Origin: a virus
Length of the DNA: 40,881 nucleotides
Virus record (IMG/VR): IMGVR_UViG_3300043540_000449
Location: 1 to 40,881 of that record
Reading direction: 5' to 3' (one strand)
Position 1 is the first letter of the stretch. Every line of letters begins with the position of its first letter. Under the pieces are notes generated by a model. It saw only the letters and a program-made list of their open reading frames with translations, had not been told where the DNA came from and ran no database searches. Of the stretch, positions 5,615 to 38,430 are shown piece after piece. The position numbers and the translations under genes were made by a program.

Positions 5615-5651
5615 ATTTTATGTTTTTACCTCTATCGAGCTTTATCAATTT

Positions 5652-6530: not shown

Positions 6531-7183
6531 AAGTTTTTTCCTTCAATTTCATAATGATTAAGTATTTTTCCTTTAATATCTATCAAGTGAAGTCCGTTAT
6601 TAACTTCCGTTCTCCCAAGAGATACAATTTTCAGGTGTCTGCATTCGCCCTCAACCTGAACTATTTTATATCCCGCTCTCCGAATATTACTGGTAAACCA
6701 GATATCGTGCATTCCATATACTTTATGGGGGTCTTGTCCTTCAAGCCAGCGCTCCTCGTTTATTGAATATGCCTTATCCGCCCTGAAAAAAGGGAGGGGG
6801 ATTTTATCAAACACTTCTCTTTTTACCAAGGTCATCCCCAGCCCGCAAAAGAGGATTTCTTTTGTAGAGCGCCGATATTGTATAGTTGAGTAGTTATTGT
6901 GCATCGCATAGTCAATGCACGCCGCCCCCACTTCTTTTGGTTTTATCGCCTCAAGAAGTTTTGGCAAGGCATTTTTGATAGGAACGGTATCTTCCTCTAT
7001 AAAAAATATATAGGCAGGACTGTCTTTAAGAGCTTTATTTACCAATTCATTTTGAGCTTCGGGAATGGGAAGGTTGTGGGAGAAGAAAACTTTAATTGGG
7101 TAGGCGGAGCGCATTTTTTCAAGTTCCTCTAGAACTTCGGTAAATACCAGACCACGACTTGGAAGAACAACGTTGATACGCAT
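6527..7183 (-). CDS. glycosyltransferase-like GT-A protein (218 aa)
   Basis: First gene of the leftward set. It starts MRINVVLPSRGLVFTEVLEE and has a DxD-like acidic motif in IFFIEEDTVP near residue 80. It continues with GAACIDYAMHNNYS, GLGMTLVKREVFDKIPLPFF and a conserved-looking GMHDIWFTSNIRRAGYKI. This order fits GT-A transferases in which a late (H/E)D is catalytic. The ATG lies 7 nt from a good -10 box, so the mRNA is predicted to be leaderless. Donor and acceptor unknown. Confidence 0.75.
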   Translation of the reverse strand: MRINVVLPSRGLVFTEVLEELEKMRSAYPIKVFFSHNLPIPEAQNELVNKALKDSPAYIFFIEEDTVPIKNALPKLLEAIKPKEVGAACIDYAMHNNYSTIQYRRSTKEILFCGLGMTLVKREVFDKIPLPFFRADKAYSINEERWLEGQDPHKVYGMHDIWFTSNIRRAGYKIVQVEGECRHLKIVSLGRTEVNNGLHLIDIKGKILNHYEIEGKNL

Positions 7184-8105: not shown

Positions 8106-11100
8106 GTGCCTTTTAAGCTGAACGAGGTGCAGGATATGTTTTTGAGGGAGGCGACAGGAGCGGATATTATTCTTAAATCACGCCAGCAGGGGTTATCAAG
8201 CCTCATACTTGCCCTGTTTACGGTAGATTTTTTGACGGTTGAAAATGTAAAAAATGTGGTTATATCTCACGAGCAAAAGGCGACCATAAGACTTTTAGAC
8301 AGGGTTAAATACTATCTTAATTCTCTTAAAAAAACGTTTAAGGGTGATCCTCCATTTAATCTAAAATATAACTCACGCTATGAAATGGTCAATACCCAAA
8401 AGAACTCGGTCTTTTATATAGGGACTGCGGGGGGCAGGGCTTTTGGTCATGGAGACACCATAAACAACCTGCATTTTTGTCTATCAGAGAACAATATGGT
8501 TATTGGACACAATGGTTTTGTTGACAAAATTAATAGTCTTGGAACATTAACCAAAGATGTCAGAACTGGAACGGGGTGTTTAGCCGAGGTTAAATGTCTT
8601 TCGAAAAAGACAACTAAAAAATTGGGGCACGACCACTTATTGAGTATAAAAAGTTTTGGCAACCAATCTCTTCCGCTAGAAGTAACCCCAGACCATAAAA
8701 TTCTTACCAGGGAATTTAAGACAGGAAAACCTGTTTGGAAACGGGCTGATGAATTAACAAAGAAAGACTATATTGGTTTTCCTTTGAACAACCCTAGTCA
8801 TAAAGTTAAATTTTTTCGGGTAGATTATGTAAAAGGATATAAATCTGGAGTAAAAACATTTCAGCATACACTATCTCTAAATTATGATTTAGGTTTATTA
8901 AGTGGATGGTATTTGGCGGAAGGCAGTATTATCAAGGCTAAGTATGGATTTAAAGGATTTATTTTATCTGTAGATACTGATGAGGAAAAAGAAATTAAAA
9001 ATTTAATTAACAAGTTTAGTGATTTGATTCAAAGCGTAGGCGTGTCTATAAATAAAAACAGTAGAAGTAAGAATATTAGGATTTATTCTCGTCCCCTTGG
9101 GAAATATCTAATTGAGTTGTTTAACGAAAAGGATGGTAAAAATATTCCAGATGTAGTATGGAATTATCCAAGAGAATTTCTTTTAGGTTTAATTAAAGGG
9201 TTGATTTTAGGTGATGGTTCAATCAAAGAATCGAGAAGCGTTAGCTTTTCTTCGGTAAGACCACAGCTTGTAGTTCAACTAAAAAGACTCTTAATTTCTC
9301 TAAGAATCGGTTATCCATCAATTAATATAACTCCTGCGTCTAAAAAGTGGAATCGTAACAATAGAGAGAGATGGACACTTATACTTTTTGGTTCGGCAAA
9401 TATAAAATTAAGGAGAATACTTGGGTGGAAGATGCCAGATTTTAAAACACACCCTGTTTTGAGAAAAAGACATTCCAATTGGAATTTCGGACGCAAAGAT
9501 TGGCGGAGGGGTAAAGATTATTATTGGTCGAAAATAACATCTATAGAACAAATTGAAGCTCCAAAATTTGTTTATGATTTGGTTTTGGAACACCCTTGTC
9601 ATTCTTATACTACAGTATCTGGGGTTGTGCATAATTCGGAGATCAGTCGTTACCAGGATGCCGAACGAATTTACACGGGAGTTATTCAGGCGGTCCCAAA
9701 AGACGGGCGTATCATAATCGAAACCACGGCCAATGGTTACGGAAATTTCTTCTATAAGCTCTGGAATAAAAATGTCAGGGGAGGAAGTTATACTAATCAT
9801 TTTTTCCCGTGGTTTAGGTCAAAAGAATATACGCTCCCCGTACCGAAAGGGACAGAATTTACCGAAGAGGAGTTAAAAATTGCCGAGAAGTATGGACTTA
9901 CCAGAGAACAGCTCCAGTGGAGAAGATGGAAGATTGAACAGTTAAACGGGGATGTTGACCGCTTTAATGAGTCGTTCCCCGCAACGCCAGAGGAGGCATT
10001 TATCGTATCAGGAAATCCCGTTTGGAGTTCAAGTTTAATGAAAGAGTATCTTTTGCGGGTAAAAAAGCCGATGGTGGTTGGCAATCTGGTCGGGTATAAT
10101 AAAAATGTAACGGTTGAGCGAAATGAGAAAGGATACTTAAAGATATATAGGAAGCCGCAGGAGTTTCACCGTTATGTAATCGGAGCGGATGTTGCCGCTG
10201 GGAAAATGATCTCCAGCGAAGGAGATCTGCCAGATACCGATTATTCCTGCGCCCAAGTAATTGACGCCAATACATTGGAGCAGGTGGCGGTATTTCATGG
10301 ACGGATCGACCCCGATATGTATGGTCGTCAGCTTGAACTTTTGGGGACGCTTTATAATAATGCTCTTATTGCGGTTGAACGGAACTCTTTAGGTTTGGCT
10401 ACGCTTATCACCCTTCGTGACTTATATTATCCAAATATCTATTTTAAGGAACAGTTCGGTCTTATTGCCGAAAAGACAACTTCGGAAATGGGTTGGGAAA
10501 CAACCTCCGAAAGCAAGGGACTTATGATCGCCGACACAACACGGCTTCTTCGGGAAAAAAGGTTAGTCATTTATGATGAGGAAACGATAGGAGAAATGAT
10601 GTCGTTTGTCAGAACCCCATCTGGTCTTGCCGAAGCAATTCCTGGAGCTCATGACGACAGATGTTTTATAGCGGGAACTAAAATACTGACAAGTAGGGGT
10701 CAAATAAACATAGAAGATATAAAAGTTGGGGATTTGGTAATGACAAGAAAGGGATACAAACCAGTAGTAGCTACTGGTTTAAGGTATGACTATGTCATTG
10801 AAAATAAGGCATTACATCTTATAGGAACACCAGATCATCCTATAATTACTAAAACTGGCACTTCAAGGCTTGACAACATTAAAGCAACTGATATACTATA
10901 CATATGGAACGAGAAACTATCATCTATCGAGGAAAGAAGTATCACCGATATCCTCAATCAAAAAGAAGACAGTTACAAGTCTATTTCTGGAGGCACGATA
11001 AATGGAAATCTCCCCCCTTTGCGCTTCATAGACAAATTTGGATTGACCACTTTGGGAAGATCCCTAAGGGATATATTATTCATCATAAAGACGAAAATCC

Positions 11101-11672
11101 TCTTAATAACACTATCAATAATCTTGAATGTATTTCGGTTAAAGAACATAATGAAAAACATTTTACAGAAGAGAGAAAACAAAGGAGTATTGAGAATGGT
11201 AAAAGGCAAGCTGACCGTCTTGTTAAACAACTTAGAGAATGGAGAAAAAATAATCCAGAAAAAGCAAGAGAAATATATCGGCAGAATGGGAAAAATCAAG
11301 CTCAGAGAGCCGTTAAGACACTTGCCGAATGGAGAAAGAATAATAGAGAAAAATTCGAAAGAATATGTAGAGAAAATGGTAAAAAACTCAATCAGTGGAT
11401 GTGGGGGAAAAAGAGCGGTTTATAATCTAAAAGTAGCTGATTGCCCCGAATACTTTGCTAATAATATACTTGTTCATAATTGTATTGCCTATATGATTGC
11501 ATTACAGATGATTGGAAAGCCACAAGCCCGTCAGAGAGGAAATGAGATTGAGAGGCAGGATTTGGGAAGTGAGATTTTTTATATCAACAATGTTCCCTTT
11601 AATAAGGAAGGACAACCTATAAATCCAGAAGATAGTATGGACGTTTCAAATAATGAGGATTTTGTTTTTTAA
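8106..11672 (+). CDS. terL: terminase large subunit (TerL) precursor with two inteins
   Basis: ATP-driven DNA packaging motor and nuclease. The Walker A variant KSRQQGLSS lies at residues 24-32. Walker B is split by intein 1 (INNLHF joined to SEIS), followed by coupling motif IIIETTANGYGN. The RNase H-like nuclease shows VIGADVAAG, IAVERNSLG and GAHDDR, the last split from CIAYM by intein 2. Removing inteins (residues 125-510 and 853-1125) leaves about 529 residues, normal for TerL. The GTG at 8106 is the only standard start, but the frame stays open to 7998 and family-like sequence (LSFLIVNKEN) precedes it. The real start may be ATA 8037, which overlaps the TerS stop. Confidence 0.95.
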   Translation: MPFKLNEVQDMFLREATGADIILKSRQQGLSSLILALFTVDFLTVENVKNVVISHEQKATIRLLDRVKYYLNSLKKTFKGDPPFNLKYNSRYEMVNTQKNSVFYIGTAGGRAFGHGDTINNLHFCLSENNMVIGHNGFVDKINSLGTLTKDVRTGTGCLAEVKCLSKKTTKKLGHDHLLSIKSFGNQSLPLEVTPDHKILTREFKTGKPVWKRADELTKKDYIGFPLNNPSHKVKFFRVDYVKGYKSGVKTFQHTLSLNYDLGLLSGWYLAEGSIIKAKYGFKGFILSVDTDEEKEIKNLINKFSDLIQSVGVSINKNSRSKNIRIYSRPLGKYLIELFNEKDGKNIPDVVWNYPREFLLGLIKGLILGDGSIKESRSVSFSSVRPQLVVQLKRLLISLRIGYPSINITPASKKWNRNNRERWTLILFGSANIKLRRILGWKMPDFKTHPVLRKRHSNWNFGRKDWRRGKDYYWSKITSIEQIEAPKFVYDLVLEHPCHSYTTVSGVVHNSEISRYQDAERIYTGVIQAVPKDGRIIIETTANGYGNFFYKLWNKNVRGGSYTNHFFPWFRSKEYTLPVPKGTEFTEEELKIAEKYGLTREQLQWRRWKIEQLNGDVDRFNESFPATPEEAFIVSGNPVWSSSLMKEYLLRVKKPMVVGNLVGYNKNVTVERNEKGYLKIYRKPQEFHRYVIGADVAAGKMISSEGDLPDTDYSCAQVIDANTLEQVAVFHGRIDPDMYGRQLELLGTLYNNALIAVERNSLGLATLITLRDLYYPNIYFKEQFGLIAEKTTSEMGWETTSESKGLMIADTTRLLREKRLVIYDEETIGEMMSFVRTPSGLAEAIPGAHDDRCFIAGTKILTSRGQINIEDIKVGDLVMTRKGYKPVVATGLRYDYVIENKALHLIGTPDHPIITKTGTSRLDNIKATDILYIWNEKLSSIEERSITDILNQKEDSYKSISGGTINGNLPPLRFIDKFGLTTLGRSLRDILFIIKTKILLITLSIILNVFRLKNIMKNILQKRENKGVLRMVKGKLTVLLNNLENGEKIIQKKQEKYIGRMGKIKLREPLRHLPNGERIIEKNSKEYVEKMVKNSISGCGGKRAVYNLKVADCPEYFANNILVHNCIAYMIALQMIGKPQARQRGNEIERQDLGSEIFYINNVPFNKEGQPINPEDSMDVSNNEDFVF
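8478..9635 (+). mobile_element. intein 1 in TerL with LAGLIDADG endonuclease (386 aa)
   Basis: Protein-splicing element. The first residue is Cys (CLSENNMVIGHNGF). Block B is LEVTPDHKILTREF. The C-terminal blocks are FVYDLVLEHPCHSYTTVSG ending VVHN, with Ser as the +1 extein residue. Two dodecapeptide motifs, LLSGWYLAEGSI and LLGLIKGLILGDGSI, mark a LAGLIDADG homing endonuclease. It interrupts the Walker B motif, a typical conserved insertion site. All splicing residues (Cys1, TxxH, His-Asn, Ser+1) are present, so it should splice. Confidence 0.95.
10870..10897 (+). promoter_or_regulatory. promoter inside intein 2 for the nested HNH gene
   Basis: TTGACA (10870-10875), 16-bp spacer, TATACT (10892-10897), then 6 nt to the HNH ATG at 10904. 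It lies within the intein coding sequence. The geometry equals that of other leaderless promoters here (for example before 11721 and 30442). Confidence 0.6.
10904..11425 (+). CDS. HNH homing endonuclease nested out of frame in the TerL intein (173 aa)
   Basis: Complete gene with ATG and TAA, lying wholly inside the intein 2 reading frame but shifted. The N-terminal YRGKKYHRYPQSKRR is followed by the HNH core: ALHRQIWIDHFGKIP, GYIIHHKDENPLNNTINNLE and EHNEKH, near residues 40-88. This is the HNH type found in phage intron and free-standing homing enzymes. The C terminus has two copies of an EWRKNNxEKxxxIxxxNGK unit, a likely DNA-binding extension. A promoter-like sequence lies 6 nt upstream and there is no SD. 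It probably mobilises the intein or itself. Confidence 0.85.
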   Translation: MERETIIYRGKKYHRYPQSKRRQLQVYFWRHDKWKSPPFALHRQIWIDHFGKIPKGYIIHHKDENPLNNTINNLECISVKEHNEKHFTEERKQRSIENGKRQADRLVKQLREWRKNNPEKAREIYRQNGKNQAQRAVKTLAEWRKNNREKFERICRENGKKLNQWMWGKKSGL

Positions 11673-11685
11673 TTTAAAAATATAC

Positions 11686-11713
11686 TTGACAAAGCATATA
11701 TTTGCTATATCAT
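11686..11713 (+). promoter_or_regulatory. promoter before the 11721 gene, leaderless geometry
   Basis: TTGACA (11686-11691), 16-bp spacer, TATCAT (11708-11713), 7 nt to the ATG at 11721. It sits in the short gap after TerL and would drive portal-region transcription. Confidence 0.6.
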
Positions 11714-11720
11714 TTATTAT

Positions 11721-12113
11721 ATGATTGAAATTATTGCTTTGCTGGCGGCAGTTGTTTTTTTCTTCTTTCTTTACCATAAGTATTTTATTGAAACGGAGTT
11801 CAATAATTTATTTCATTTTATTGATAGTATAGATAAATCCGTTACATTATCTGGGGAAGAAAAAAAGAAAGAAAATGAAATCATTAAAGGAGAGATAAGC
11901 GAACTTAAAAAAGAACTCAAAATAGTATCAAAAGAACTGTCTGAAAAATTAGAGAATATAACTAAAAAAATGGTTGTGTATGAGGAAAATGAAATTGAGA
12001 AAAAAGAGAAGGAGGAAGTTCCCTTAAGTGAAGAATACCGCATTCCCATTGTTGATGGGATGAAGGTAAAATTTGAAGGGGATGATAAAACATACCCCAT
12101 TAAAATTGAATAA
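11721..12113 (+). CDS. small membrane-anchored coiled-coil protein (130 aa)
   Basis: Residues 3-19 (EIIALLAAVVFFFFLYH) are one transmembrane segment. Residues 45-95 form a charged coiled coil (KKENEIIKGEISELKKELKI and onward), and the C terminus is a short beta-type tail (YRIPIVDGMKVKFEG). It lies between TerL and portal and ends 5 nt before the portal ATG. A predicted leaderless promoter precedes it. Function unknown; a membrane role in entry or assembly is possible. Not a recognisable spanin, since no lipobox is present. Confidence 0.7.
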   Translation: MIEIIALLAAVVFFFFLYHKYFIETEFNNLFHFIDSIDKSVTLSGEEKKKENEIIKGEISELKKELKIVSKELSEKLENITKKMVVYEENEIEKKEKEEVPLSEEYRIPIVDGMKVKFEGDDKTYPIKIE

Positions 12114-12118
12114 TTAGT

Positions 12119-15100
12119 ATGAGTAAAAAAGAAGATAGAAAAAAAGACCCAGTTCCAGAAGTTTTGAAGGAAGTGCAGGAGCTTCGTGAACAGCAGGATT
12201 TCCTTGCCCGTGGAAAAAAGCTCCTCCAAAACGCTCAAGATGCCAGACGAAGGTATGATTATGAGTGGATGGTTCGTGATTTATTCAGGCGTGGATACCA
12301 ATTCTCCCGCTTTCAGCCAACAACCCAAACCGTTATATTGTCTTCTCGTCAACAGGCAAAAATTCCCATTAACTTGGTTGCGGCTCAACTTCGTTCCATT
12401 AGAAACCAAGCGACCGCCTTTAGACCAAAATGGGAAGTTGCTCCTCGTTACCAAACTGAAGAAAGTAAAGTGCAGGCTCGCTATACTCAACAGCTTCTTG
12501 ATTATCTTTTTGATCACTTAAAATTAAAGACGCTAATTAAAGAAACAGTTACTCAAGGACTGATTTTTTCGGTGGGGGGTCCGTGGGAAGTAACCTATGA
12601 CGAAGAAAAAGATGAAGTACGGGTTTGGCTGCTTGATCCTTTTGATTTTTATATTGACCCGTTAGCCGAGTCGGTTGACGATTCCGAGTTTTGTATCAAG
12701 GCGGTACGAAGACCATTATCCGAGGTATTGAATAATCCTTTATTTAATGAGAGGGCGAGGAAAGAAATTGGGGGAGCAGAAGCCCGTCTAGCTATGAGCG
12801 AATATAAGCAGTTTATTATTCAGTCAATGCGGATTGTTTCCCAAAGAACTTACGATATGAACGAAAGCATTATTTTATTTGATGGGTCGTTTAAGGTAAG
12901 AAAAGACGGAAAAGTTAATTTGCGAAGAATGGTTTGGACAGATCAAAATATCACTCCATTAATTTGGGAGCTTAGAGATGATGAAGAATATGATTATGTT
13001 ATATATCGTGCGGACTTAAATCCAAAAGAAATATACGGGGAAGGATGGATGAAACATGTTATGCCAATTAACCGTGTAATAAACAATCTTGAATCTTCGG
13101 TTTTTGAATATAATACAAGAGTTGCCAAGGGAAGAATTGTTGTTGATAAAGACAGCGGAGTTCGGGCTATTCATAATGTTCATGGAGAAATTATTTCAAA
13201 GGTTCGGGGAACTGAAGTCAGGGCTCTTGATATGCCTTCACTTCCTATAGCTGTTTCCACTCAGATTGAACGAATGAACCAATATCAGCAGGATATTGGA
13301 GCGGTGCATGATTCTTCGCTTGGAAGAATACCTGTTGGAGCAAGAAGCGGCTTGATGGTTGCGGAACTTAAGCAAAGCGATAGCTGTGTTGACATTGAGA
13401 CAGAGGCTCTAACAAAGAGAGGTTGGAAAAAATATAACGAGATTTTAGATGGAGAAGATATTTATTTACTCGACCCAAAAACGAAACAATCAAGGTGGGG
13501 CAAAGTAAACTGGATTTACTGGAACGATAAGGAAGAAGCCGAGATGTATGTGGCTAAAACGAAAACGATTTCTTTTCTTACAACTCCAGATCATTCGTGG
13601 ATGACCGTGAACGTCAGGGGCAATTGGAAAAAAGAACAGACACAAACACTTAAAAATGATCAATATATTCCTTTAGCGGTTAAAAATGGTCAAATTCCCG
13701 TAAAAAAAATGTATTCAGATGATTTTGTGCGGTTAGTTTCTTGGGTTATAACTGAAGGAACATATAATGGAATTAGCAGAAGAGATAAGAAAAATGGAAG
13801 TCTGGAAATAAGGATTTATCAGGCAGAGAAAAATATGGACAAAGTTGAGAAAATTAAAGAATTATTTTCCCGATTAAAGATTAATAGAAAACCGTATGTT
13901 GGAAAAATAAGAGGGAGCACTCGTTGTTGGACATTTAGTTTTGCAAAAGATTATGCTAAACAAATAAGGGAACTTTTCCCGACCAAAAGTTTGACGATAG
14001 ACTTTGTTTCTCAATTAACCGAAGACCAATTACATATTCTTATTGATACGATGATTTTGGGAGATGGATATGAAGAAGCTGTAAATAAAGGAAGAAGAAG
14101 TTTTATTAATACAAATAAGGAAACGATTGACGCTTTTCAATTCGCCAATACCTTACTTGGAGTTCCAACCGCTGTAAGTAAAAAAACAAGAGAGAGAGAA
14201 CATTGGAAAACCTGTTATGTTGTTTATCTTAAAAATAATCCAAAGGTATCGGTAGGCAATCTTCTGAATGGAAAACTAAAAAAAATCAAATTTACAGGAA
14301 GAATATGGTGTCCAAATACTGAAACGGGTTATTGGTTAGCAAGAAAAGACGGAAAGGTCTTTTATACTGGCAACACCGGACAGCAAGACATCACCGATAA
14401 CTTGGAGGACTTTTTGGAGGAAGTAGCCCGAAAGATATTAAAAAAGATTGCCAAACATTATACCTCTTACCATGTTATTAGAAATCTTGGCTATCGGGAT
14501 GAAGACGCAAAGTATTTTGCAGTGGTGGGAGAGTCGTCGAAGAAAAAGGGTTCAGCCGATATAAAACATAAAGGACAGGTGAAAATAGGCCCCGACTGGC
14601 TTGACCTTGCGATTATTGGAGAGGACACCCATGTTAAAGTTAGTATCGGAAGCTGGCTTGGATACACGAAAGAAATTATGGAGCAAAAGATATTGAAGTT
14701 TGCCGAGATTGGTTTAATAGACCAAAAAACTGCTTTGAAACTGTTGGAGTTTGGCAACATTGATGAGATTGTTAAACAAACGAGGATTGAAAGTTTGCTA
14801 AAAAAGAGTATCCAGTCGGGGAACATGAACCAAAACCCCGAAGAAGACCAATATGGGTTGGCGTTAACGGAAAACGAAATGATGGTAAATGAGGATAAGG
14901 ATATGCCTGTTGATCCCCATGATGACCATTATGTCCATATTGCCCTTCATCAAGAGGCTTTAGGAAAAGGAAGAGACGACCTTGTTGGAAAACATATTCA
15001 AATTCACCAATCATACTTGGGGCAGTCAACCGAGCAAATTCCTAATCAGGCTCAAGGGACTCAATCAGTTACCCCGCCTCAAGGCGGTCAAATGCCACCG

Positions 15101-15193
15101 CCAACGCCAAACGGAGCATCAATGATAGGTGGCGGAGGGGGAATGGGAATGCCGACTATGCCTCAGGGACAGGGAACAGTTCCGATACAATAA
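12119..15193 (+). CDS. portal protein precursor with one intein
   Basis: Forms the dodecameric DNA channel at one head vertex. Extein features are a charged N-terminal helix, YEWMVRDLFRRGYQFSRF, then PINLVAAQLRSIRNQATAFRP and WEVAPRY, a DPFDFYIDPLA motif, and NRVINNLESSVFEYNTRVAK, which fit the P22/podovirus-like portal class. The intein interrupts residues 423-752; the extein is about 694 residues, a normal size. The C terminus is Gln/Gly/Pro-rich and flexible. The start ATG has no SD and follows the upstream stop by 5 nt. Position directly after terminase supports the call. Confidence 0.9.
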   Translation: MSKKEDRKKDPVPEVLKEVQELREQQDFLARGKKLLQNAQDARRRYDYEWMVRDLFRRGYQFSRFQPTTQTVILSSRQQAKIPINLVAAQLRSIRNQATAFRPKWEVAPRYQTEESKVQARYTQQLLDYLFDHLKLKTLIKETVTQGLIFSVGGPWEVTYDEEKDEVRVWLLDPFDFYIDPLAESVDDSEFCIKAVRRPLSEVLNNPLFNERARKEIGGAEARLAMSEYKQFIIQSMRIVSQRTYDMNESIILFDGSFKVRKDGKVNLRRMVWTDQNITPLIWELRDDEEYDYVIYRADLNPKEIYGEGWMKHVMPINRVINNLESSVFEYNTRVAKGRIVVDKDSGVRAIHNVHGEIISKVRGTEVRALDMPSLPIAVSTQIERMNQYQQDIGAVHDSSLGRIPVGARSGLMVAELKQSDSCVDIETEALTKRGWKKYNEILDGEDIYLLDPKTKQSRWGKVNWIYWNDKEEAEMYVAKTKTISFLTTPDHSWMTVNVRGNWKKEQTQTLKNDQYIPLAVKNGQIPVKKMYSDDFVRLVSWVITEGTYNGISRRDKKNGSLEIRIYQAEKNMDKVEKIKELFSRLKINRKPYVGKIRGSTRCWTFSFAKDYAKQIRELFPTKSLTIDFVSQLTEDQLHILIDTMILGDGYEEAVNKGRRSFINTNKETIDAFQFANTLLGVPTAVSKKTREREHWKTCYVVYLKNNPKVSVGNLLNGKLKKIKFTGRIWCPNTETGYWLARKDGKVFYTGNTGQQDITDNLEDFLEEVARKILKKIAKHYTSYHVIRNLGYRDEDAKYFAVVGESSKKKGSADIKHKGQVKIGPDWLDLAIIGEDTHVKVSIGSWLGYTKEIMEQKILKFAEIGLIDQKTALKLLEFGNIDEIVKQTRIESLLKKSIQSGNMNQNPEEDQYGLALTENEMMVNEDKDMPVDPHDDHYVHIALHQEALGKGRDDLVGKHIQIHQSYLGQSTEQIPNQAQGTQSVTPPQGGQMPPPTPNGASMIGGGGGMGMPTMPQGQGTVPIQ
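13385..14374 (+). mobile_element. intein in the portal gene with LAGLIDADG endonuclease (330 aa)
   Basis: Begins CVDIETEALTKRGWKKYNEI (Cys1), has LTTPDHSWMTVN as block B and ends WLARKDGKVFYTGN, followed by Thr as +1 residue of the extein (TGQQD). The penultimate residue is Gly rather than His, a variant known for inteins with the GKVxxTGN ending. Dodecapeptides LVSWVITEGTYNG and LIDTMILGDGYEE show a LAGLIDADG endonuclease. It splits the portal between ELKQSDS and TGQQDITDN. Confidence 0.93.
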
Positions 15194-24174: not shown

Positions 24175-25344
24175 ATGGATACCTATACACAACCAGGAGG
24201 AAATACTCCTCAATCTTTACAGCTTTCTGACTTGATGGATACGATTGCTAAGTTAAAAGGGCAGGTGTCTCCTGATACCTATAGCGCCCTTGAGGGAGCA
24301 GGCAAGGCTGCCCAATCAGCCGCTACCGCAACAAGCCAGTTTCCAACTTTTATATCACAGCAAAAAGCGGGGTATGAACAACAGGCGGGAATTCCTCAAG
24401 GAATTAAAACATTTTCTGATCTTTCCGATCTTCACAAAATGATTATTGCCGATTATCAGTTGGCTAATAAATACGCTGACAAGTATATGAGACCAGATTT
24501 TCAACAGTCTGGAACTCCAACTCAACAGCCATCAGATGTGCCAACAATGCCCAATGTTCCTGCGCCACAACTTCCTATTATGACGCAGGAAAGTGTAACT
24601 CAACCTTATTCTGGATTGACTAATCCGTGGGATGCTCTTAATGTAGCTACAACAGGAACTGCACTTCAAGAAAAAGGAGTTGTAGATATAGCAAACGCAT
24701 TAGCAACGCTTATAGGACAAAACTACCAAAATATATGGGGAAACCTGTCTTCGGATAAGACGGCGTATCAGGCAAATATTGACGCAATGGATCGTCTTGC
24801 CAATATGTATATGAATTTGGCTCAATTTTCCCAGTCAAACAAAGAACAGGGATTGATAGCTCAAATGCAAACCGATGTTTCCCTAGCGCCTAATACCCGT
24901 AAAGCTCTTGATGCATTAAGGCTTAAATATCAGCCGCTTGGCATTACTGCAGAGGATTTGTTAAAGGAATGGAAAAGGCAGGGAAAAATATCCGATACGG
25001 ATTTTTCAAAAATAGTTAATGAATGGGGTTTGCCTCAATCACTACTGCCAAAGCAAAAAATACAAACAGTTACCAATAAGGATGGAACAAAAAGCATCTA
25101 TGAACTTCAACCAGATGATACATATAGATTGGTTAGCATTATTGGAGAAGGGGGAAAGGGTCAAAAACCTGTAAAAATAGGAAATGATTGGTATCAGTAT
25201 AATGCAAATACAAAACAATATGAGCCGATAAACAAAGGATTATTTGGAACGGGATTATTTGCTCCGCCCCCAATACCCGATGTAAGCGCCTCATTGTCGG
25301 AAGGAACGAGAGGAGTAACATTAGACAGTTTAATTGAAAAATAA
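24175..25344 (+). CDS. virion-module protein, likely internal (389 aa)
   Basis: Gln/Ala-rich helical protein beginning MDTYTQPGGNTPQSLQLSDL. It has a Pro-rich linker near residues 115-140 and a long helical middle (KTAYQANIDAMDRLANMYMN). A C-terminal part contains GNDWYQYNANTKQYEPINKG. No catalytic motif recognised. Size, composition and place between the coiled-coil gene and a membrane-active protein gene fit an internal virion protein. A promoter ends 4-5 nt before ATG. Confidence 0.6.
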   Translation: MDTYTQPGGNTPQSLQLSDLMDTIAKLKGQVSPDTYSALEGAGKAAQSAATATSQFPTFISQQKAGYEQQAGIPQGIKTFSDLSDLHKMIIADYQLANKYADKYMRPDFQQSGTPTQQPSDVPTMPNVPAPQLPIMTQESVTQPYSGLTNPWDALNVATTGTALQEKGVVDIANALATLIGQNYQNIWGNLSSDKTAYQANIDAMDRLANMYMNLAQFSQSNKEQGLIAQMQTDVSLAPNTRKALDALRLKYQPLGITAEDLLKEWKRQGKISDTDFSKIVNEWGLPQSLLPKQKIQTVTNKDGTKSIYELQPDDTYRLVSIIGEGGKGQKPVKIGNDWYQYNANTKQYEPINKGLFGTGLFAPPPIPDVSASLSEGTRGVTLDSLIEK

Positions 25345-25345
25345 T

Positions 25346-27082
25346 ATGGCAAAATTGGATTTTCAAAAAGCAAGACAATTTGGGTTTTCCGAACAGCAAA
25401 TTAGAGATTTTGCTGATAAAAATAATATTGATTTATATAATGACCCAGGTCAAGGAGGGTTGTTGGATTTACTTCCTCTTGGAGGGAGTATTTTGGGTAT
25501 GATTGGAGGAGGTGTTTTAGGAAGCTCTGCTGGACCTGTAGGAACATATTTGGGAGGAGCGGGAGGAAACATCGCAGGGACAGCGGCAGGGAGAGGATTG
25601 GAAGATGCGATATTAAAACTTCTCGGTAAATCTCCAAAAGATATAGGAAAAGACGTATTGTCAACAACCGCCTCATATGCTCCCTATGGTTTTCTTCCAG
25701 GAGCGGGTATTGGAGGAGATATAGCTGAAAATGTCTTGGGAAAAGGTCTTGCACAGCGGGTGGGAGGAAATCTATTGACAAGATTAGCGACGGGATTAAC
25801 AGCTGGAGGAGCTTCAAGAGCATTAAGTGATATTGCTTCGGGTCAGGATGTAACAAAAGATATACCTAACATTAAAAAACAGGCTATTTCTTCAGCTGTA
25901 ATGAATGAAATTATCCCAGGACTATTTGATGTATTGGGAGCTGGTAAAAACTATGCGGGGCGTGTGGTTTCAGATATTGCAAAACAGCGGGCAGCGCAAA
26001 CAGGAGAGCTTTCACAGACGGTAGCTCAACAGTCTGCCGATGAACTTATACCTTATTATCATCAGCCTCTTGCTATACGAGAAGGAATTATTCCTGGAAA
26101 GATAGATGAGTTTGGTCGCCCGCAAGCCGCAGGAGAATTCTCCCCCCAATATGTTGATATGGCAATCAAAAATAGAGATGCGGCGGCGCAAAGAACCGAG
26201 GATGCGTTACAAAAAATATTAAAACAAACTCCCGCAAAAGGAATAAATGATGAACCGATACAAACAGCCTTTAAAGATTATATTAAAGTTGATCCAGAAG
26301 AAGCAAAAATGTTATTAAGGCGATCTAAAAATCCTCAATTGGCTGAAAATCCTGCTGCGGTAAATAAGGTGATGGACACTATTAAAGAACAAAAATTATC
26401 ATTGATATTAAACGATTTTAAGAGAAAGGCATCAGATTATCTACAGGGCGATGATCTTAAGCAGTTTAATGATTTTTTAGACGGGAAAACCGATGGAACA
26501 TTAATGGATGTTAATACTTTAAAAAGAATTATAGGAAGAAGTTTTAGTCATAAAGATAAATACGCAAGCGCTAATATCCTTTATTCAAAGTTGCGTCAGT
26601 ATATAGAAGAAGCCTCTGGAAAGTCTAAAGACGTAATGGATTTAAATGAGAAAGCCCATCTTTTAACAGAATTGCAGGGATATTTAGAGGATGCTAAAGG
26701 TAAAATGGGCTTATCAAAAAAATTTACTACCTTGTCTCAACAGCAGGCGTTAGAGAAAGCGAAATCAATGAGCAATCTTCCCGTTTCTCTTGAGCTTCCA
26801 ATAGCTCTACTTTCCGCTCTCGGAGGAGCAGTTGGGGGGGGAGCAATAGGGGCGGCGACTAAATCTTTTGGAGCAGGGGCGGGAGGAACATTTGGCACTA
26901 CTTGGGCATTGCGAAGCGCATTAAAAAATATATTAAGCAGACCTGAGGTTCAAGATGCAATGTCGGCTCAATTGCAAAATATTTCTCAAGAAACTGGAGC
27001 AAATAAGATACCTTTTATGAACCTTAGTGATTTATTAACAGCTTTGGGAGTAAGAGGAACAGTATTGGGAATTAACCGTTAA
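25346..27082 (+). CDS. Gly-rich, membrane-active internal virion protein (578 aa)
   Basis: The ATG at 25346 follows the previous stop by 1 nt; an upstream in-frame TTG is less likely. Residues 35-90 are hydrophobic and Gly-rich (GGLLDLLPLGGSILGMIGGG, AGPVGTYLGGAGGNIAGTAA). A second such stretch lies near residue 490 (LLSALGGAVGGGAIGAATKS). The middle is helical and charged. Glycine-zipper segments on a soluble helical body are typical of ejection proteins that form a channel through the host membrane. No tape-measure-like length or repeats. Confidence 0.7.
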   Translation: MAKLDFQKARQFGFSEQQIRDFADKNNIDLYNDPGQGGLLDLLPLGGSILGMIGGGVLGSSAGPVGTYLGGAGGNIAGTAAGRGLEDAILKLLGKSPKDIGKDVLSTTASYAPYGFLPGAGIGGDIAENVLGKGLAQRVGGNLLTRLATGLTAGGASRALSDIASGQDVTKDIPNIKKQAISSAVMNEIIPGLFDVLGAGKNYAGRVVSDIAKQRAAQTGELSQTVAQQSADELIPYYHQPLAIREGIIPGKIDEFGRPQAAGEFSPQYVDMAIKNRDAAAQRTEDALQKILKQTPAKGINDEPIQTAFKDYIKVDPEEAKMLLRRSKNPQLAENPAAVNKVMDTIKEQKLSLILNDFKRKASDYLQGDDLKQFNDFLDGKTDGTLMDVNTLKRIIGRSFSHKDKYASANILYSKLRQYIEEASGKSKDVMDLNEKAHLLTELQGYLEDAKGKMGLSKKFTTLSQQQALEKAKSMSNLPVSLELPIALLSALGGAVGGGAIGAATKSFGAGAGGTFGTTWALRSALKNILSRPEVQDAMSAQLQNISQETGANKIPFMNLSDLLTALGVRGTVLGINR

Positions 27083-27190: not shown

Positions 27191-28327
27191 ATGAACTTAT
27201 TCCAGATTATTAAACAGATGTTTTCAAAACCAGCCTCAAAACCAACCTCAAAACCTTCTTCAGGAGGAGGTTCGCCTTCCCGTCCTCCAGCCGTTTTCCA
27301 TCCTTCTATTTCAAGACCTTCACCGCCTCCGCCACCTCCGCCACCTCCGCCAAGACAGATTGTTCAAGGGCAGACCGCTCAAGCGGGTAATATAGGACAA
27401 AATGTTCATCCTTCTATACAATCAATGATTGCTTCCTCCTCCCAAAAATATAATGTTCCTCTACCTCTTTTAACAACACAGATTAAACACGAGAGCTCTT
27501 TTAATCCTATGGCAAGACATGTTAATACGGATGGGTCGGTTGACAGGGGGATTGCTCAAATCAACGATAAAGCTCATCCTGAAATTTCAGACAGTCAGGC
27601 GTATGATCCCCAGTTTGCGATAGACTGGATGGGAAAAACAATGGGTGAAAAATTTACCCGTTTGGGAAGTTGGGATAAGGCTCTTTCAGAATATAACACG
27701 GGAAGTCCGACTCTTGGGATAGAGAGCTATGCAAAACCCATTTTACAAGAGGCGAACATACAAAATACTCCTCCTCCGGCAGGGACAGGGCTTCTTCAAA
27801 AACTTGCTTCGGGAGAGAAGATTGATTTAACCCAATATCCAGCCTTTTCTAAGGCTCTCAAAGAAGAAGATAGTCGCTTTTATAAACAAATTGACGATTT
27901 GTCCAAGTTTATTGAGGAGGGAAGAAAATTAGCCGAACAAACAGGAGCATACTTCAGAACGCTTCCCGATACTTCAAGACAACTTGCCGAACAGGTAGGA
28001 CGGGTAATAAGAGGAGCTCAACCGCAGCCCCCTTCAGGGATACAACCTCTTGGTCCAGCCCTCCCCCCGCAGATTAAATGGGATACTCCAGTTGTCAATA
28101 ATCAAACAGGGGAAGTAACGACAGCGGGATCGCCTCCAACAAAATCTTTATTTAACCAGCTTTTGGATTATCTACAAGGAGGTCAAACAGGAGACCAGCA
28201 ACCCAATTATGAAGAAAAAAAGAAAAAACAGTCAAGACGGGGGATTGATACGGAAGGAAAAATTCCTACCCCGTTGGCTGCTCACTATATGAGAAATATA
28301 CCATTTTTAAATGATCAAAATGTCTAA
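27191..28327 (+). CDS. virion lytic transglycosylase, SLT type (378 aa)
   Basis: Cleaves peptidoglycan glycan strands, probably during DNA entry. A basic N terminus and a Ser/Pro linker with a run of ten prolines (about residues 44-53) lead to the SLT/GH23 domain at about residues 75-190. LLTTQIKHESSFNPMAR holds the catalytic Glu, RGIAQINDKAHPE is the second conserved motif and KALSEYNTGSPT the third. The C-terminal half is helical and polar with a Lys-rich end. The tail overlaps the next gene. A 108-nt gap lies upstream with an AT-rich possible -10. Confidence 0.88.
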   Translation: MNLFQIIKQMFSKPASKPTSKPSSGGGSPSRPPAVFHPSISRPSPPPPPPPPPPRQIVQGQTAQAGNIGQNVHPSIQSMIASSSQKYNVPLPLLTTQIKHESSFNPMARHVNTDGSVDRGIAQINDKAHPEISDSQAYDPQFAIDWMGKTMGEKFTRLGSWDKALSEYNTGSPTLGIESYAKPILQEANIQNTPPPAGTGLLQKLASGEKIDLTQYPAFSKALKEEDSRFYKQIDDLSKFIEEGRKLAEQTGAYFRTLPDTSRQLAEQVGRVIRGAQPQPPSGIQPLGPALPPQIKWDTPVVNNQTGEVTTAGSPPTKSLFNQLLDYLQGGQTGDQQPNYEEKKKKQSRRGIDTEGKIPTPLAAHYMRNIPFLNDQNV

Positions 28328-28637
28328 ATTGATAGGTTCTGATTTACACGGCAGTTTTGACGCCCATCCAGAAATTTGGGATAAGGTTGACGTGATTGTA
28401 ACAGGAGAAACATGGGAGGAATTTGAAGGATTGATGGAAAAATATGTCGGACCTAAAAAACCAATTTTTCTTAATCCGCTTCCTAAAGGAGAAAGCCCAG
28501 ATTTAGGAAATATCGTATCCCATAAAGAAGATATTATAAATACAATGGAGATAGACGAGTATTACGAAGACCAAAAGGAACAGGCGGATTTGTTAAAAAT
28601 TTTATGCCCGAATTGCAAAATAATTCTTCTAAAATGA
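28320..28637 (+). CDS. small HAD-like protein (105 aa)
   Basis: ATG at 28320 overlaps the transglycosylase stop by 8 nt; another in-frame ATG is at 28311. The order LIGSDLHGSFD, DVIVTGETWEEFEGLME, PIFLNPLPKG, VSHKEDIINTMEI and EYYEDQKEQADLLKILCP resembles minimal HAD-superfamily phosphatase-like phage proteins, with motif IV EDxxEQ. Motif I reads DLHGS instead of DxDGT, so the second aspartate is His. Catalysis may be altered or lost. Translation of the next gene is coupled (ATGA at 28634-28637). Confidence 0.6.
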   Translation: MSKLIGSDLHGSFDAHPEIWDKVDVIVTGETWEEFEGLMEKYVGPKKPIFLNPLPKGESPDLGNIVSHKEDIINTMEIDEYYEDQKEQADLLKILCPNCKIILLK

Positions 28638-29959
28638 AAAACTATATTATTATCAGTGCGGCAGGTTTAGGATTTTTTATGACTTCTCATTTAGGGAAGG
28701 GAAAAGGGGTGGAGAAAGTATTTTTTGCCCCGCTTGACAAGAATTTGAAGAAACTCGGACAAGATATGAACGAAGTTGATGGGTATGAAAAACTTGAAAT
28801 GGTCTTTGACCCGTTTGAAGTTTTGAATAAGTATAAGCCTGATGAAATCTATGTTGTTTTTGACGATGTTGGCTGGGGAGGGATGGCTGATTTTATTGCA
28901 AAAAAGGGGTATAAGGTGGTTGGTTCTTCGGAATTGACCGATAAAATGGAAGATGACCGTGATTTTGCGACTAAACTTTTTGGCAGGGTGATGAAAACTC
29001 CTGAAACATTTAGTTTTGATTCGTTTGAGGAAGGAATAAAATTTGCCAAAAGTCAAGATACAAAAGAACGGTTAGTTTTTAAGCCCAATGACAGTTTAGT
29101 GCCTAAAGATATGACCTATATGTCCCATGATATACCCGATTTGCTTGACGCTATGAATACTTTTAGGGGAGAATGGAAATGGAAGGAGTCGTTTCAGCTT
29201 CAGAGGGTTGTTGACGGGGTTCTTGTTGATTTTGGGGCTTGGTTTAATGGGCAGGAATACTTGAAAGACAGCCATTATCTTTACTTTGAAAATAAACCGT
29301 TTTTAGTCGGCGATAAAGGACCTGCAACAGGAGGGGAAATAGCCGTTGTTGTCTATCGGGCTAATAAGGGAATATTTTTTGATATTTTGGAGAAACTAAA
29401 GCCCATATTTAGAAAATCAGGCTACAGGGGTCAGATTTCCATAAACAGTATTGTTTCCAAAGAGGATAAACAACCATATTTTTTGGAACTTACACCTCGT
29501 TTTGGCTATCCTTCATTTCCGCAGGATATTACCGCTCTTGAAGAAAATAACCATACATTGGACGAACTTATAGACGCCCTTTGCGAAGAAAAAACTACCC
29601 CGCTTTTTCCCACCAATAAAGCCACTACCGTTATCTGGGCAACCACGCCTCCATATCCAAATAAAGTCCATAATGAGGAAATTTCGGGGCTTCCTGTTTC
29701 TTGGGATAAAAAATATGACAAGTATTTCTTTCCTTACTTTGTTATGTATGATAAAAAGAAAAAATCAATCGTATTGACAGGAAATGACGCATCGGTCTTA
29801 AATGTTACCTGTTCAGATACTACGATTGCGGGTGCGGTTGAGATGACTTATGAAAAATATCTGCCCACTATTAAACTAAAAAATATACAATATAGGACAG
29901 ATTTGGGAGAAGATGCTATAAAAAGAATTAAAGAGTTAAAAATTTTAGGAGTAATCTAA
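28634..29959 (+). CDS. ATP-grasp ligase related to GARS/PurD (441 aa)
   Basis: ATP-grasp enzymes join a carboxylate and an amine through an acyl-phosphate. The ATG at 28634 overlaps the previous stop by 4 nt. The N-terminal Rossmann-like part (IIISAAGLGFFMTSHLGKGK) is followed by FKPNDSLVPKDMTY in the ATP-binding lobe. DKGPATGGEIAVV corresponds to the GARS DTGPNTGGMG loop. RGQISINSIVSKED and FLELTPRFGYPSFPQ hold the metal-binding Glu and the NxRxGxP-like loop (T in place of N). No other purine gene is present, so an acceptor other than phosphoribosylamine is likely. Confidence 0.82.
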   Translation: MKNYIIISAAGLGFFMTSHLGKGKGVEKVFFAPLDKNLKKLGQDMNEVDGYEKLEMVFDPFEVLNKYKPDEIYVVFDDVGWGGMADFIAKKGYKVVGSSELTDKMEDDRDFATKLFGRVMKTPETFSFDSFEEGIKFAKSQDTKERLVFKPNDSLVPKDMTYMSHDIPDLLDAMNTFRGEWKWKESFQLQRVVDGVLVDFGAWFNGQEYLKDSHYLYFENKPFLVGDKGPATGGEIAVVVYRANKGIFFDILEKLKPIFRKSGYRGQISINSIVSKEDKQPYFLELTPRFGYPSFPQDITALEENNHTLDELIDALCEEKTTPLFPTNKATTVIWATTPPYPNKVHNEEISGLPVSWDKKYDKYFFPYFVMYDKKKKSIVLTGNDASVLNVTCSDTTIAGAVEMTYEKYLPTIKLKNIQYRTDLGEDAIKRIKELKILGVI

Positions 29960-29960
29960 T

Positions 29961-30410
29961 ATGACTACCACAATAGGACAAAAAACCATTGTTCCACCAG
30001 AAGGAAAGATTTTCGGGAAAGAATTGTTTTTAGACCTTTATTTTTGCGACCCAAAGACGGTCAACGATTTAAGGCTTTGTTATGATTTTCTTGACAAGGC
30101 GGTTGATTTGTTAGGAGTGGCTAAACAAGCGCCTCCATTTATCTTTCAAAGTCCTACCCAATATATTAAGAACGGGAAGATAGTAGACTGCAGTAATAAG
30201 GCTGGACTATCGGGTTTTGTTCCTCTTATTGAGAGCTCCGTTGTAATTCATACCCTTGTTCCCAAAAACTTTGTTACTATTGATTTTTATACCTGCGGGA
30301 ATTTAGACACTCCTATGATTGATAAGATGGTTGACTTTGCCAAGCGTACCTTTAATCCGAAAAAGCTCGATATTAAAATAATAAGACGTGGGGAAAACTA
30401 TTATACTTGA
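29961..30410 (+). CDS. speD: S-adenosylmethionine decarboxylase-like protein (149 aa)
   Basis: Pyruvoyl-dependent decarboxylase family. KAGLSGFVPLIESSVVIHTL holds the self-cleavage Glu-Ser pair (ES, near residues 89-90) and the conserved His, and VTIDFYTCGNLD holds the catalytic Cys. An N-terminal FGKELFLDLYFCDP aligns with the usual HxxxDLxGC start. Length fits the bacterial class. Product would be decarboxylated AdoMet for polyamine synthesis, but related proteins can act on arginine or ornithine, so substrate is open. The ATG lies 1 nt after the ligase gene, an apparent enzyme cassette. The symbol reflects family only. Confidence 0.78.
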   Translation: MTTTIGQKTIVPPEGKIFGKELFLDLYFCDPKTVNDLRLCYDFLDKAVDLLGVAKQAPPFIFQSPTQYIKNGKIVDCSNKAGLSGFVPLIESSVVIHTLVPKNFVTIDFYTCGNLDTPMIDKMVDFAKRTFNPKKLDIKIIRRGENYYT

Positions 30411-30441: not shown

Positions 30442-31323
30442 ATGGTTGTAGATTTAAAATCACGACAAAGACTGATGGAAGATAGGCGTATGGAAATGAT
30501 TGTCCGTGGAATTGGCGATACTATAAAAAGCTCTCTCTCTAAAACAAATGGGTCAAGCGAAGAGAAAAAACACATCATAAGTCTTCAATTAGATGAAAAG
30601 AACGACCCTTCAATGCTTGAGATGGTTGATAAAATGGGCAAGGGGCTTATTCTTCTTTACAAGGCGATTAAAAATATAAGGATTGATTTTCCTCCAGTGC
30701 AGGAAGTTGACGGGACGGTTCGTATCAGGGAAATGCCGCAGGTTAAGGTAAGAAATCTTGACGATCTGGAGAAGTATTTTAAGTCTTTAGAATATCGTAT
30801 TGGTCAACTTGCTCAAGCGATATCAATGGTTAAAAAAGCTCCGCCTCCTAAAATTGAGTTCCCCAAGTTTGATGTTCCCGACAATAGCAAAGCGGTTATA
30901 AAAGTATTGGGTGAGCTTGAAAAAGCAATTTCACGGTTAGAGAAAAAAGAAATGGATTTTCCCGAGTCTATCGAGGTTTCTAACTTCCCGCCCCAGATAG
31001 TCCCGACTCCCGTTACACATATTTCTATAAACTCATTAAACGGAACGGTTAAGTCAACTGCGGTAATGGTAACTACCGATTTAACTCCTTTACCCCCAGT
31101 TGCTTTAGCATACAGACGATCATTAACCATTTATAATAATTCATCAGTTACGATTGAGATAGGGGGCTCGGCTTTTACATTCGGGAACGGGCTGCCTGTT
31201 CCTGCGGGAACATACGCCCCCTCATTTGATGCAGGTCCAAGTACGATTGTATATGGAAGAACAAGTAGCGGGACAGCCGATGTAAGAGTTACGGAAATTA
31301 GCGATGAAGACTCGGGTCGTTAA
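30442..31323 (+). CDS. tail appendage protein with coiled coil and beta tip (293 aa)
   Basis: The N terminus is a helical charged region (LKSRQRLMEDRRMEMIVRGI). A coiled part follows (DLEKYFKSLEYRIGQLAQAI) with Pro-rich breaks (KKAPPPKIEFPKFDVPD). The C terminus is a beta-domain with YRRSLTIYNNSSVTIEIGGS and GLPVPAGTYAPSFDAGPSTI, a module common in phage structural proteins for particle attachment. Likely a fibre or spike base. Starts a new transcription unit after the enzyme cassette. Confidence 0.7.
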   Translation: MVVDLKSRQRLMEDRRMEMIVRGIGDTIKSSLSKTNGSSEEKKHIISLQLDEKNDPSMLEMVDKMGKGLILLYKAIKNIRIDFPPVQEVDGTVRIREMPQVKVRNLDDLEKYFKSLEYRIGQLAQAISMVKKAPPPKIEFPKFDVPDNSKAVIKVLGELEKAISRLEKKEMDFPESIEVSNFPPQIVPTPVTHISINSLNGTVKSTAVMVTTDLTPLPPVALAYRRSLTIYNNSSVTIEIGGSAFTFGNGLPVPAGTYAPSFDAGPSTIVYGRTSSGTADVRVTEISDEDSGR

Positions 31324-37437: not shown

Positions 37438-38430
37438 ATGAAAATAAATTTACCGAAAATATACAGTCAAAATGATGAGAGGTGGAAAAACAAGACGCTT
37501 GGGACAAAAGGCACTATTGGTGCTTATGGTTGTCTTTTGACCGATATAGCAATGCTATGCGTATATTTTGGACACGATGAGACACCAGACACTCTTAATG
37601 AAAAACTAAAAGCAAACGGTGGCTATCAGGACGGCAACCTATATGTCTGGGGGGCATTGACTAAAATCTATCCTGATATAACCTATCAGGGACAAGTCTT
37701 AACTCCCGACCCTCTTACTAAAACCCAGATGGATTTTATCAGATCAAGAATAGATGAGGGTTATCCTGTTGTCCTCCAAATAGACGCAATTCCATCAACC
37801 GCACAATTAGATGAACATTGGGTCTTGGCTGTTGATTATGACGGCGATGACTTTATTTTGGCTGACCCTTGGGACGGAGCAGTAAAAAGAATAACCTCTT
37901 GGGGCGTAGAACCTAAAAAGATAATCTATGCTTATGCTTGGTATAAGGGAACTCCTGCTAAAGAAACTGGCGACTATTATCTTGGAATTGACCTTAACAA
38001 CAAAGAAAGTATTAAGGTTTGTGTTGCCACTTGGAAGCGGGTTATTGACGGGGAGTTTGTAGATAAATCAAAATATCAGGAGTTAGAGAACGCCATTGCC
38101 AATCTTAATCAGCAGATATCAGACTTAAATGCTAAAAATACGGCTATTAACGATGAGAATAAAAATCTACGAGGTCAATTAAAAGATTGTCAGGACAAGA
38201 TAGAGGAAATTACTACCCAGAATAGCAATAGCAATTCTGATTTGCTAACATTAACACAAGAGCTAAACCAACTTAAACTTGACTATGAGAACGCCAAAAA
38301 AGACTGGGGGATAAAAGAGATTAACTATCAAAAACAAATCAAAACTTTACAAACAAAATTAGATGGTTATAAATCGCCAGTAAAAAAAATGTTAGTTGAC
38401 ATCTGGCAAAAAGTTGTAAAAGGCGTATGA
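37438..38430 (+). CDS. endolysin-like C39 family peptidase (330 aa)
   Basis: Papain-like cysteine peptidase expected to cut peptidoglycan cross-links. SQNDERWKNKTLGTKGTIGA and YGCLLTDIAMLCVYFG hold the catalytic Cys near residue 32. DEHWVLAVDYDGDDFIL has the His near 121, and ADPWDGAVKRI the Asp. Residues 205-310 are a long coiled coil (NAIANLNQQISDLNAKNTAI), unusual for an endolysin and perhaps a wall-binding or oligomerisation stalk. It has no signal peptide, so release needs the holins downstream. Its stop overlaps the next ATG (ATGA). Confidence 0.82.
   Translation: MKINLPKIYSQNDERWKNKTLGTKGTIGAYGCLLTDIAMLCVYFGHDETPDTLNEKLKANGGYQDGNLYVWGALTKIYPDITYQGQVLTPDPLTKTQMDFIRSRIDEGYPVVLQIDAIPSTAQLDEHWVLAVDYDGDDFILADPWDGAVKRITSWGVEPKKIIYAYAWYKGTPAKETGDYYLGIDLNNKESIKVCVATWKRVIDGEFVDKSKYQELENAIANLNQQISDLNAKNTAINDENKNLRGQLKDCQDKIEEITTQNSNSNSDLLTLTQELNQLKLDYENAKKDWGIKEINYQKQIKTLQTKLDGYKSPVKKMLVDIWQKVVKGV

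Follow-up and report, generated by a model that had tools for sequence, protein, structure and literature searches.

What would a PurD-like ligase and a SpeD-like decarboxylase be doing among the virion genes of a phage? The question is raised by three adjoining genes in the IMG/VR virus record IMGVR_UViG_3300043540_000449, a fragment of 40,881 bases that we analysed over its whole length and refer to as the window. These genes, which we call the cassette (Table 1), encode a small HAD-like protein, an ATP-grasp ligase and a pyruvoyl decarboxylase. Our best explanation, a tentative one to which we give somewhat less than even weight, is that they form a late amide-ligation module of the virion gene block, in which the ligase works with an amine-supplying decarboxylase. 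An earlier note on this DNA had described three tightly coupled genes lying between a transglycosylase and a fibre gene, and the open reading frame calls and the spacing bear this out. The transglycosylase and HAD-like genes overlap by 8 nucleotides (nt) and the HAD-like and ligase genes by 4 nt (ATGA), a gap of 1 nt separates ligase and decarboxylase, and 31 nt lie between the decarboxylase and the fibre gene. The longest stop-free run in the cassette segment is 477 codons, whereas 300 base shuffles gave at most 131, and no terminator-like site was found on the + strand of the cassette region. The placement holds as well, with the SLT transglycosylase recognized by PF01464 and the 293-amino-acid (aa) downstream product taken as a putative fibre protein from its position and composition. 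The entire cassette is also present in one other IMG/VR contig, L001 (55,819 bases), which carries a 127-base terminal repeat and is therefore probably a complete genome; we refer to it as the sister phage.

The ligase is confidently predicted to have the GAR-synthetase fold over its whole length. Its AlphaFold2 model, built with 16 sequences, has a predicted local distance difference test (pLDDT) value of 86 and a predicted template modelling (pTM) score of 0.87, and the top 15 Foldseek matches in the PDB are all GAR synthetases, with a probability of 1.00 and a template modelling (TM) score of ~0.7 for PurD/GAR synthetase structures (PDB 2yw2, 2xcl, 1gso and 2qk4). A profile search likewise matched the GAR synthetases of the PDB (E 7e-36). 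Against the PurD equivalog TIGR00877, the window ligase scores 60.3 bits (E 1.5e-16), well below the curated cut-off of 288; the sister ligase scores 39.4 bits and other phage members 84–93 bits. Pfam returned a weak GARS_C match alone, no PHROG matched the ligase, and BFVD held no full-length match, the best viral one reaching a TM score of 0.43.

Is this protein then a PurD? E106, R109, K150, Q190, E219, K221, T232, G233, G266, E285, R289, P293, R421, D423 and G425 are invariant in 89 of 89 phage ligases, and T287 is kept in 88 of them. By analogy with PurD, K150 would be the ATP-binding Lys, E285 the metal-binding Glu and R289 the phosphate-binding Arg; the invariance of these three residues, together with the fold, marks the family as ATP-grasp enzymes. 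The C-terminal YRxDxG motif is also shared with PurD. However, the structure alignment gives only 18% identity, and the signature residues of PurD are gone: the N-terminal GGREHA with its G-G-R is absent, the Asn of ExN is replaced by Thr or Cys (ExT in the window ligase), and the Asp and Glu of DPE are lost. The same losses are common to the window, the sister phage, the other phage members and the cellular paralogues described below. In PurD, the N-terminal motif binds phosphoribosylamine. In a maximum-likelihood tree, bona fide PurD sequences form one clade (100/100) from which the ligase is excluded, and the phage ligases group with the cellular paralogues (100/100); the window and sister ligases sit on long branches, for which the tree tool issued a warning, and their exact place is unsure. 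Because the PurD-specific residues are lost and the clade is separate, these sequences support the view that the ligase is something other than a normal PurD and probably uses another amine, as the earlier note had proposed.

The ligase is widespread among phages. A profile-type scan confirmed relatives in at least 339 viral contigs, and we surveyed 80 viral ligase loci, in 71 of which an upstream gene is present. This gene lies on the same strand as the ligase in 58 of the 71 loci and within 30 nt of it in 44. The upstream products are internal/ejection-protein-like (median 653 aa; most without a PHROG match), so that the ligase usually adjoins the last ejection/internal-protein gene. The same slot is seen in MW202796 and in L007–L022, and in an earlier set of loci the gene downstream is usually a fibre-type gene starting PPIPQDKI...WREWF. 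MW202796.1, a complete GenBank phage genome, contains an unannotated 443-aa ligase gene (42140–43471; L003 19764–21095) with an internal-protein gene on one side and a short gene of the PIPQDKIGE kind on the other. L006 comes from a contractile-tail phage and has the ligase gene between those for the tail and for the baseplate wedge. None of the 80 surveyed loci contains a gene for SpeD or HAD, so that the ligase must have some function for which neither is required. The best reading is that the ligase is the conserved core of the module and that the decarboxylase was added in the lineage of the window and the sister phage.

Paralogues of the ligase also occur in cells: in 11 of 286 Patescibacteria genomes, in one micrarchaeon (Micrarchaeota) and in Planctomycetes. 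These PurD-like proteins (L038, L039, L040, L049–L058) share the N-to-T and D-to-E changes, the loss of GGR and the clade with the phage ligases, but they are chromosomal, mostly stand-alone and outside phage contigs, and no SpeD or HAD gene adjoins them. On one Patescibacteria chromosome (G240; L073, 621–11332), the paralogue belongs to a same-strand gene run with carboxynorspermidine-synthase-like, pyridoxal-phosphate-type ornithine/diaminopimelate-decarboxylase and saccharopine-dehydrogenase-fold genes, with metK and ahcY close by. No further cellular paralogue with a polyamine link in the same order was found.

The decarboxylase passes the Pfam cut-off for AdoMet_dc (PF02675; 54 bits, cut-off 25) and falls short of that for the S-adenosylmethionine (AdoMet) decarboxylase equivalog TIGR03330 (53.2 bits, cut-off 75.65). 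In an alignment with the T. maritima enzyme and other SpeD proteins, the pyruvoyl Ser, the processing His (His68 equivalent) and the catalytic Cys (Cys83 equivalent) are kept in the window and the sister phage. The HTWPE motif reads HTLVP in the window and HTLTP in the sister phage, with Trp70 replaced by Leu; a conserved Pro is a mark of bona fide AdoMet decarboxylases (PMC10407285). Both phage proteins have an N-terminal loop insertion that is common to HTF-type sequences and missing from AdoMet decarboxylases, and both fall inside an HTF-type Patescibacteria clade (99/95), in a tree that contains no assayed SpeDC and whose clade is named SpeDC-type from its features and the placement of phiN3. 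Of the diagnostic Gln, Thr, Phe and Tyr of SpeDC, candidate Thr, Phe and Tyr are found in both phages and a candidate Gln in the sister phage only, all at candidate positions. SpeD relatives of this type are ornithine or arginine decarboxylases, including phage enzymes and one from the candidate phyla radiation (PMC9992855, PMC10407285). The phage decarboxylases resemble the SpeDC ornithine decarboxylases of these studies in family, in the Ser/His/Cys residues, in the loop insertion and in grouping with Patescibacteria sequences of putative SpeDC type; they differ in having HTL(V/T)P instead of HTFPE and in forming an operon with a ligase. The earlier note had called the protein AdoMet decarboxylase-like. 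The SpeD family stands on the Pfam match, while AdoMet as the substrate is disfavoured by the TIGR03330 score, the residues and the clade: the enzyme probably acts on an amino acid rather than on AdoMet, with ornithine the substrate that we infer and another amino acid possible given the change of Trp70 to Leu in the pocket. No spermidine synthase (SpeE) gene is present in the window or the sister genome, although a host could supply the enzyme.

A single-sequence scan confirmed no close relatives of the decarboxylase in viral contigs, and cellular SpeD searches covered Patescibacteria and Planctomycetes. Two other viral contigs have a SpeD-like gene that directly follows the portal gene, L024 (4288–5636), where a DUF3326 gene follows (PF11805, E 2.6e-68), and L031 (2682–3137), whose product has an altered catalytic Cys region; nothing beyond these two pointed to a wider family of portal-linked SpeD-like genes. 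Separately, Microcystis phage MaAM05 (L082) carries two tandem speD-type genes beside speE, as in bacterial pairs of SpeD and SpeDC.

The first gene of the cassette is the least certain. Its sister copy (L001:7658–7987) has HAD-like motifs in the right order, DFDGT ... ITG ... HK ... YEDQ. In the window, motif I reads DLHGS, with His at +2, and thus departs from the DxDx(T/V) pattern that supplies the nucleophile and acid-base Asp. The protein matched nothing in the libraries or among the PDB profiles, and its AlphaFold2 model (pLDDT 47) is too poor for use. A HAD pair scan of viral contigs confirmed the sister phage alone, and tblastn of the sister copy against 50,697 phage records returned nothing. 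The small protein is a probable HAD member of doubtful activity. While the earlier note was right to call the HAD-like protein altered, and its SpeD and ligase assignments stand (the former by Pfam, the latter by TIGR00877, PDB profiles and fold), HAD membership comes through the motif order of the sister copy.

How well is the cassette kept between the two phages? They are distant relatives, with identities of 75% for the capsid, 60% for the terminase and 65% for the portal. The sister cassette occupies the same slot in the same order, with spacings of -4, 7, -4 and -8 nt compared with -8, -4, 1 and 31 nt in the window, and its proteins are 55% (HAD-like), 47% (ligase) and 45% (decarboxylase) identical to those of the window. 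By BLAST, the cassette proteins show 44–51% identity, versus 34% for the fibre gene and none or 28% for the neighbouring ejection genes; the two genes just upstream of the window cassette have no match in L001. This conservation above the flanks argues for selection on the cassette, as judged from one pair of related phages. Whether the genes co-occur elsewhere was a point raised by the earlier note: all three do so in a single distant sister phage, but the cassette is not an obligate unit, given the surveyed ligase loci that lack SpeD and HAD.

In the amide-ligation module that we favour, the ligase would be co-produced with the last ejection/internal virion protein and would spend ATP joining an amine to a carboxylate, not phosphoribosylamine to glycine. 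In the window lineage, the pyruvoyl decarboxylase derived from SpeD, whose substrate is probably ornithine or an amino acid akin to it, would yield a small putrescine-like amine as one of the ligase substrates. The HAD-like protein would be accessory and, in the window phage, possibly a phosphatase no more. The amide product would most likely act in or on the particle: an ejection or fibre protein might carry it as a modification, or it might be packaged as a cationic conjugate. The sequences themselves show the fold, the lost PurD signature, the retained ATP-grasp and pyruvoyl residues, the coupling of the genes and their kept slot, and from these we infer the substrates, the joint action of the two reactions, the target and the product. 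The lack of a spermidine synthase in either phage and the polyamine-type neighbourhood of the G240 paralogue support this module, for which phiW-14 (PMC5977210) offers a precedent. Several points weigh against it: the ligase occurs without a decarboxylase in 80 of 80 other surveyed loci, the link between ligase and decarboxylase comes from two related phages, the polyamine neighbourhood was seen in 1 of 11 Patescibacteria genomes and is weak, post hoc evidence, and the HAD assignment, drawn from sister motif order alone, is weak. A more specific version, in which hundreds of podovirus-like contigs have a PurD-derived ligase that is coupled in translation to the last ejection/internal protein and amidates a virion component during assembly, and the window lineage gained a pyruvoyl decarboxylase for the amine, appears rather unlikely in that full form.

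The main rival, doubtful in its own right and almost as likely as the favoured module because nearly all ligase loci lack the decarboxylase, is that one transcript carries two independent late functions: the decarboxylase would make putrescine or agmatine, as a packaging counter-ion or for late translation, and the ligase would use another amine for the job of its own family, e.g. to modify a virion protein. Phages are known to carry amino-acid decarboxylases of the SpeD type (PMC9992855, PMC10407285), and the two portal-linked SpeD-like genes lie on short contigs without a ligase, in line with such a separation. It has to contend with the fact that the two genes are 1 nt apart in the window and overlap in the sister phage, and that their order is kept despite diverged flanks. 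It is improbable that the ligase family instead adds a cell-derived amino acid to a virion protein or surface molecule, with the HAD-like and SpeD-like proteins as degenerate structural or regulatory remnants; the altered motif I of the window HAD, the Leu in place of Trp or Phe in the SpeD pocket and the changed catalytic Cys region of L031, which suggests that inactive SpeD-like proteins may occur, fit this idea, yet in both phages the SpeD protein retains the Ser, His and Cys that self-processing and catalysis need, and the two copies are conserved at 45% identity. Ordinary auxiliary metabolism, with the ligase boosting purines as a PurD and the decarboxylase supplying decarboxylated AdoMet for spermidine, would agree with PurD and AdoMet decarboxylase being the best named families and with a phage purD of snow viruses reported as an auxiliary metabolic gene (PMC11097641). 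We consider it very unlikely, as the scores lie far under the curated cut-offs (60 versus 288; 53 versus 75.65), the PurD signature residues are lost, the clades are separate, SpeE is missing and the genes sit in a virion block; in its plain form it was rejected on cut-offs, residues and trees. Equally little credence, or slightly less, goes to DNA hypermodification of the phiW-14 type, with putrescine or an amino acid put on bases. Amine-making and ligase genes do stand together here, and phiW-14 DNA has ornithine-derived putrescine (PMC5977210), but the phiW-14 route runs through a pyrophosphoryl intermediate (PMC5977210) rather than an ATP-grasp amide, and the cassette belongs to a late virion block. 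Neither the window, which is a fragment, nor the sister genome with its terminal repeats has a member of the thymidylate/hydroxymethyl-uridylate synthase family (PF00303), and this absence weakens the suggestion of DNA modification in the earlier note.

Table 1. Genes of the cassette and its immediate surroundings in the window
Feature	Position	Strand	Remarks
Probable internal/ejection protein	25334–27082	+	PHROG 167, tape-measure-like, E 2.6e-4; no match in sister phage
SLT transglycosylase virion protein, directly upstream of the cassette	27191–28327	+	PF01464, E 1.4e-10; PHROG 342, internal virion protein with endolysin domain
Small HAD-like protein, 105 aa	28320–28637	+	Alternative ATG at 28311; motif I DLHGS, not DxDGT
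PurD-like (GARS-fold) ATP-grasp ligase, 441 aa	28634–29959	+	Phage/Patescibacteria paralogue family, distinct from PurD
SpeD-like pyruvoyl decarboxylase, 149 aa	29961–30410	+	PF02675; ornithine-decarboxylase-type clade
Fibre-like gene, 293 aa, downstream	30442–31323	+	34% identity to sister phage counterpart

The cassette is part of a podovirus-like late block in which terminase, portal, major capsid protein, tail and internal proteins, the SLT protein, the cassette and the fibre-like gene follow one another. Within this block, the terminase and portal genes (window 8106–11672 and 12119–15193) contain probable inteins that are missing from the sister phage: the terminase has two insertions, ~382 and ~264 aa long, with the ends VVHN|S and LVHN|C, and the portal protein has one, ~329 aa long, that starts CVDIETEALTKRG. 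On the - strand at 4934–7183 are three glycosyltransferase-region genes, two with glycosyltransferase-like PHROG matches, which are shared with the sister phage; the latter has several more genes of this region and a GDP-mannose-dehydratase/epimerase-like gene. At 37438–38430, a C39-like peptidase domain (PF13529, E 7.7e-11) is followed by a coiled coil. As to the host, relatives of the major capsid protein were found in 4 of 379 Patescibacteria genomes, at 32% identity at best (G052:C113, G204:C5, G099:C15 and G187:C68; L120–L123), a possible hint. The contig parts read around these relatives carry no cassette genes, and the best capsid matches among named phages are cyanophages.

Phage modules of amidoligase, ATP-grasp and glutamine-amidotransferase genes are reportedly treated by Iyer et al. 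2009, and enzymes of the glutathionylspermidine synthetase type belong to the ATP-grasp group. The modules of LUZ24-like podoviruses (PMC3890496) resemble the cassette in that phage C–N ligases are thought to make amide modifications, but they use other ligase families, belong to an early rather than a virion block and have no SpeD-type decarboxylase. In addition to the cassette, the sister phage has neighbouring genes for an Amidoligase_2 protein and a GATase_6 glutamine amidotransferase (L117, G382; 9349–13032), which recall the modification module of LUZ24-type phages; the window fragment showed no pair of this kind. PhiW-14, with its putrescinyl-thymine DNA, is similar in its phage use of ornithine-derived putrescine and in having a glutathionylspermidine-synthetase-like protein, its sole polyamine-related gene product (PMC5977210); it differs in modifying DNA bases via hydroxymethyl-uracil, for which the window and sister phage lack the thymidylate synthase family gene. 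ATP-grasp and amidoligase genes in podoviruses were already known (PMC3890496, PMC6209634), as were SpeD-derived phage decarboxylases. A description of a family of PurD-derived ligases with a fixed place in the virion block, or of its pairing with a SpeD-type enzyme, was not found in the open-access literature, the part of the literature that was covered.

The ligase is conserved in a fixed virion-block slot across hundreds of phage contigs, has no PHROGs entry and would be misread as a 'purD' auxiliary gene; the phage 'purD' of the snow viruses (PMC11097641) may belong to this family. If the ligase modifies a virion protein, it would represent a new kind of particle maturation step, and if it conjugates a polyamine, it would form a direct link between amine synthesis by the phage and the function of its particle. 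In both cases, the family calls for caution against tallying such ligase genes as purine metabolism.

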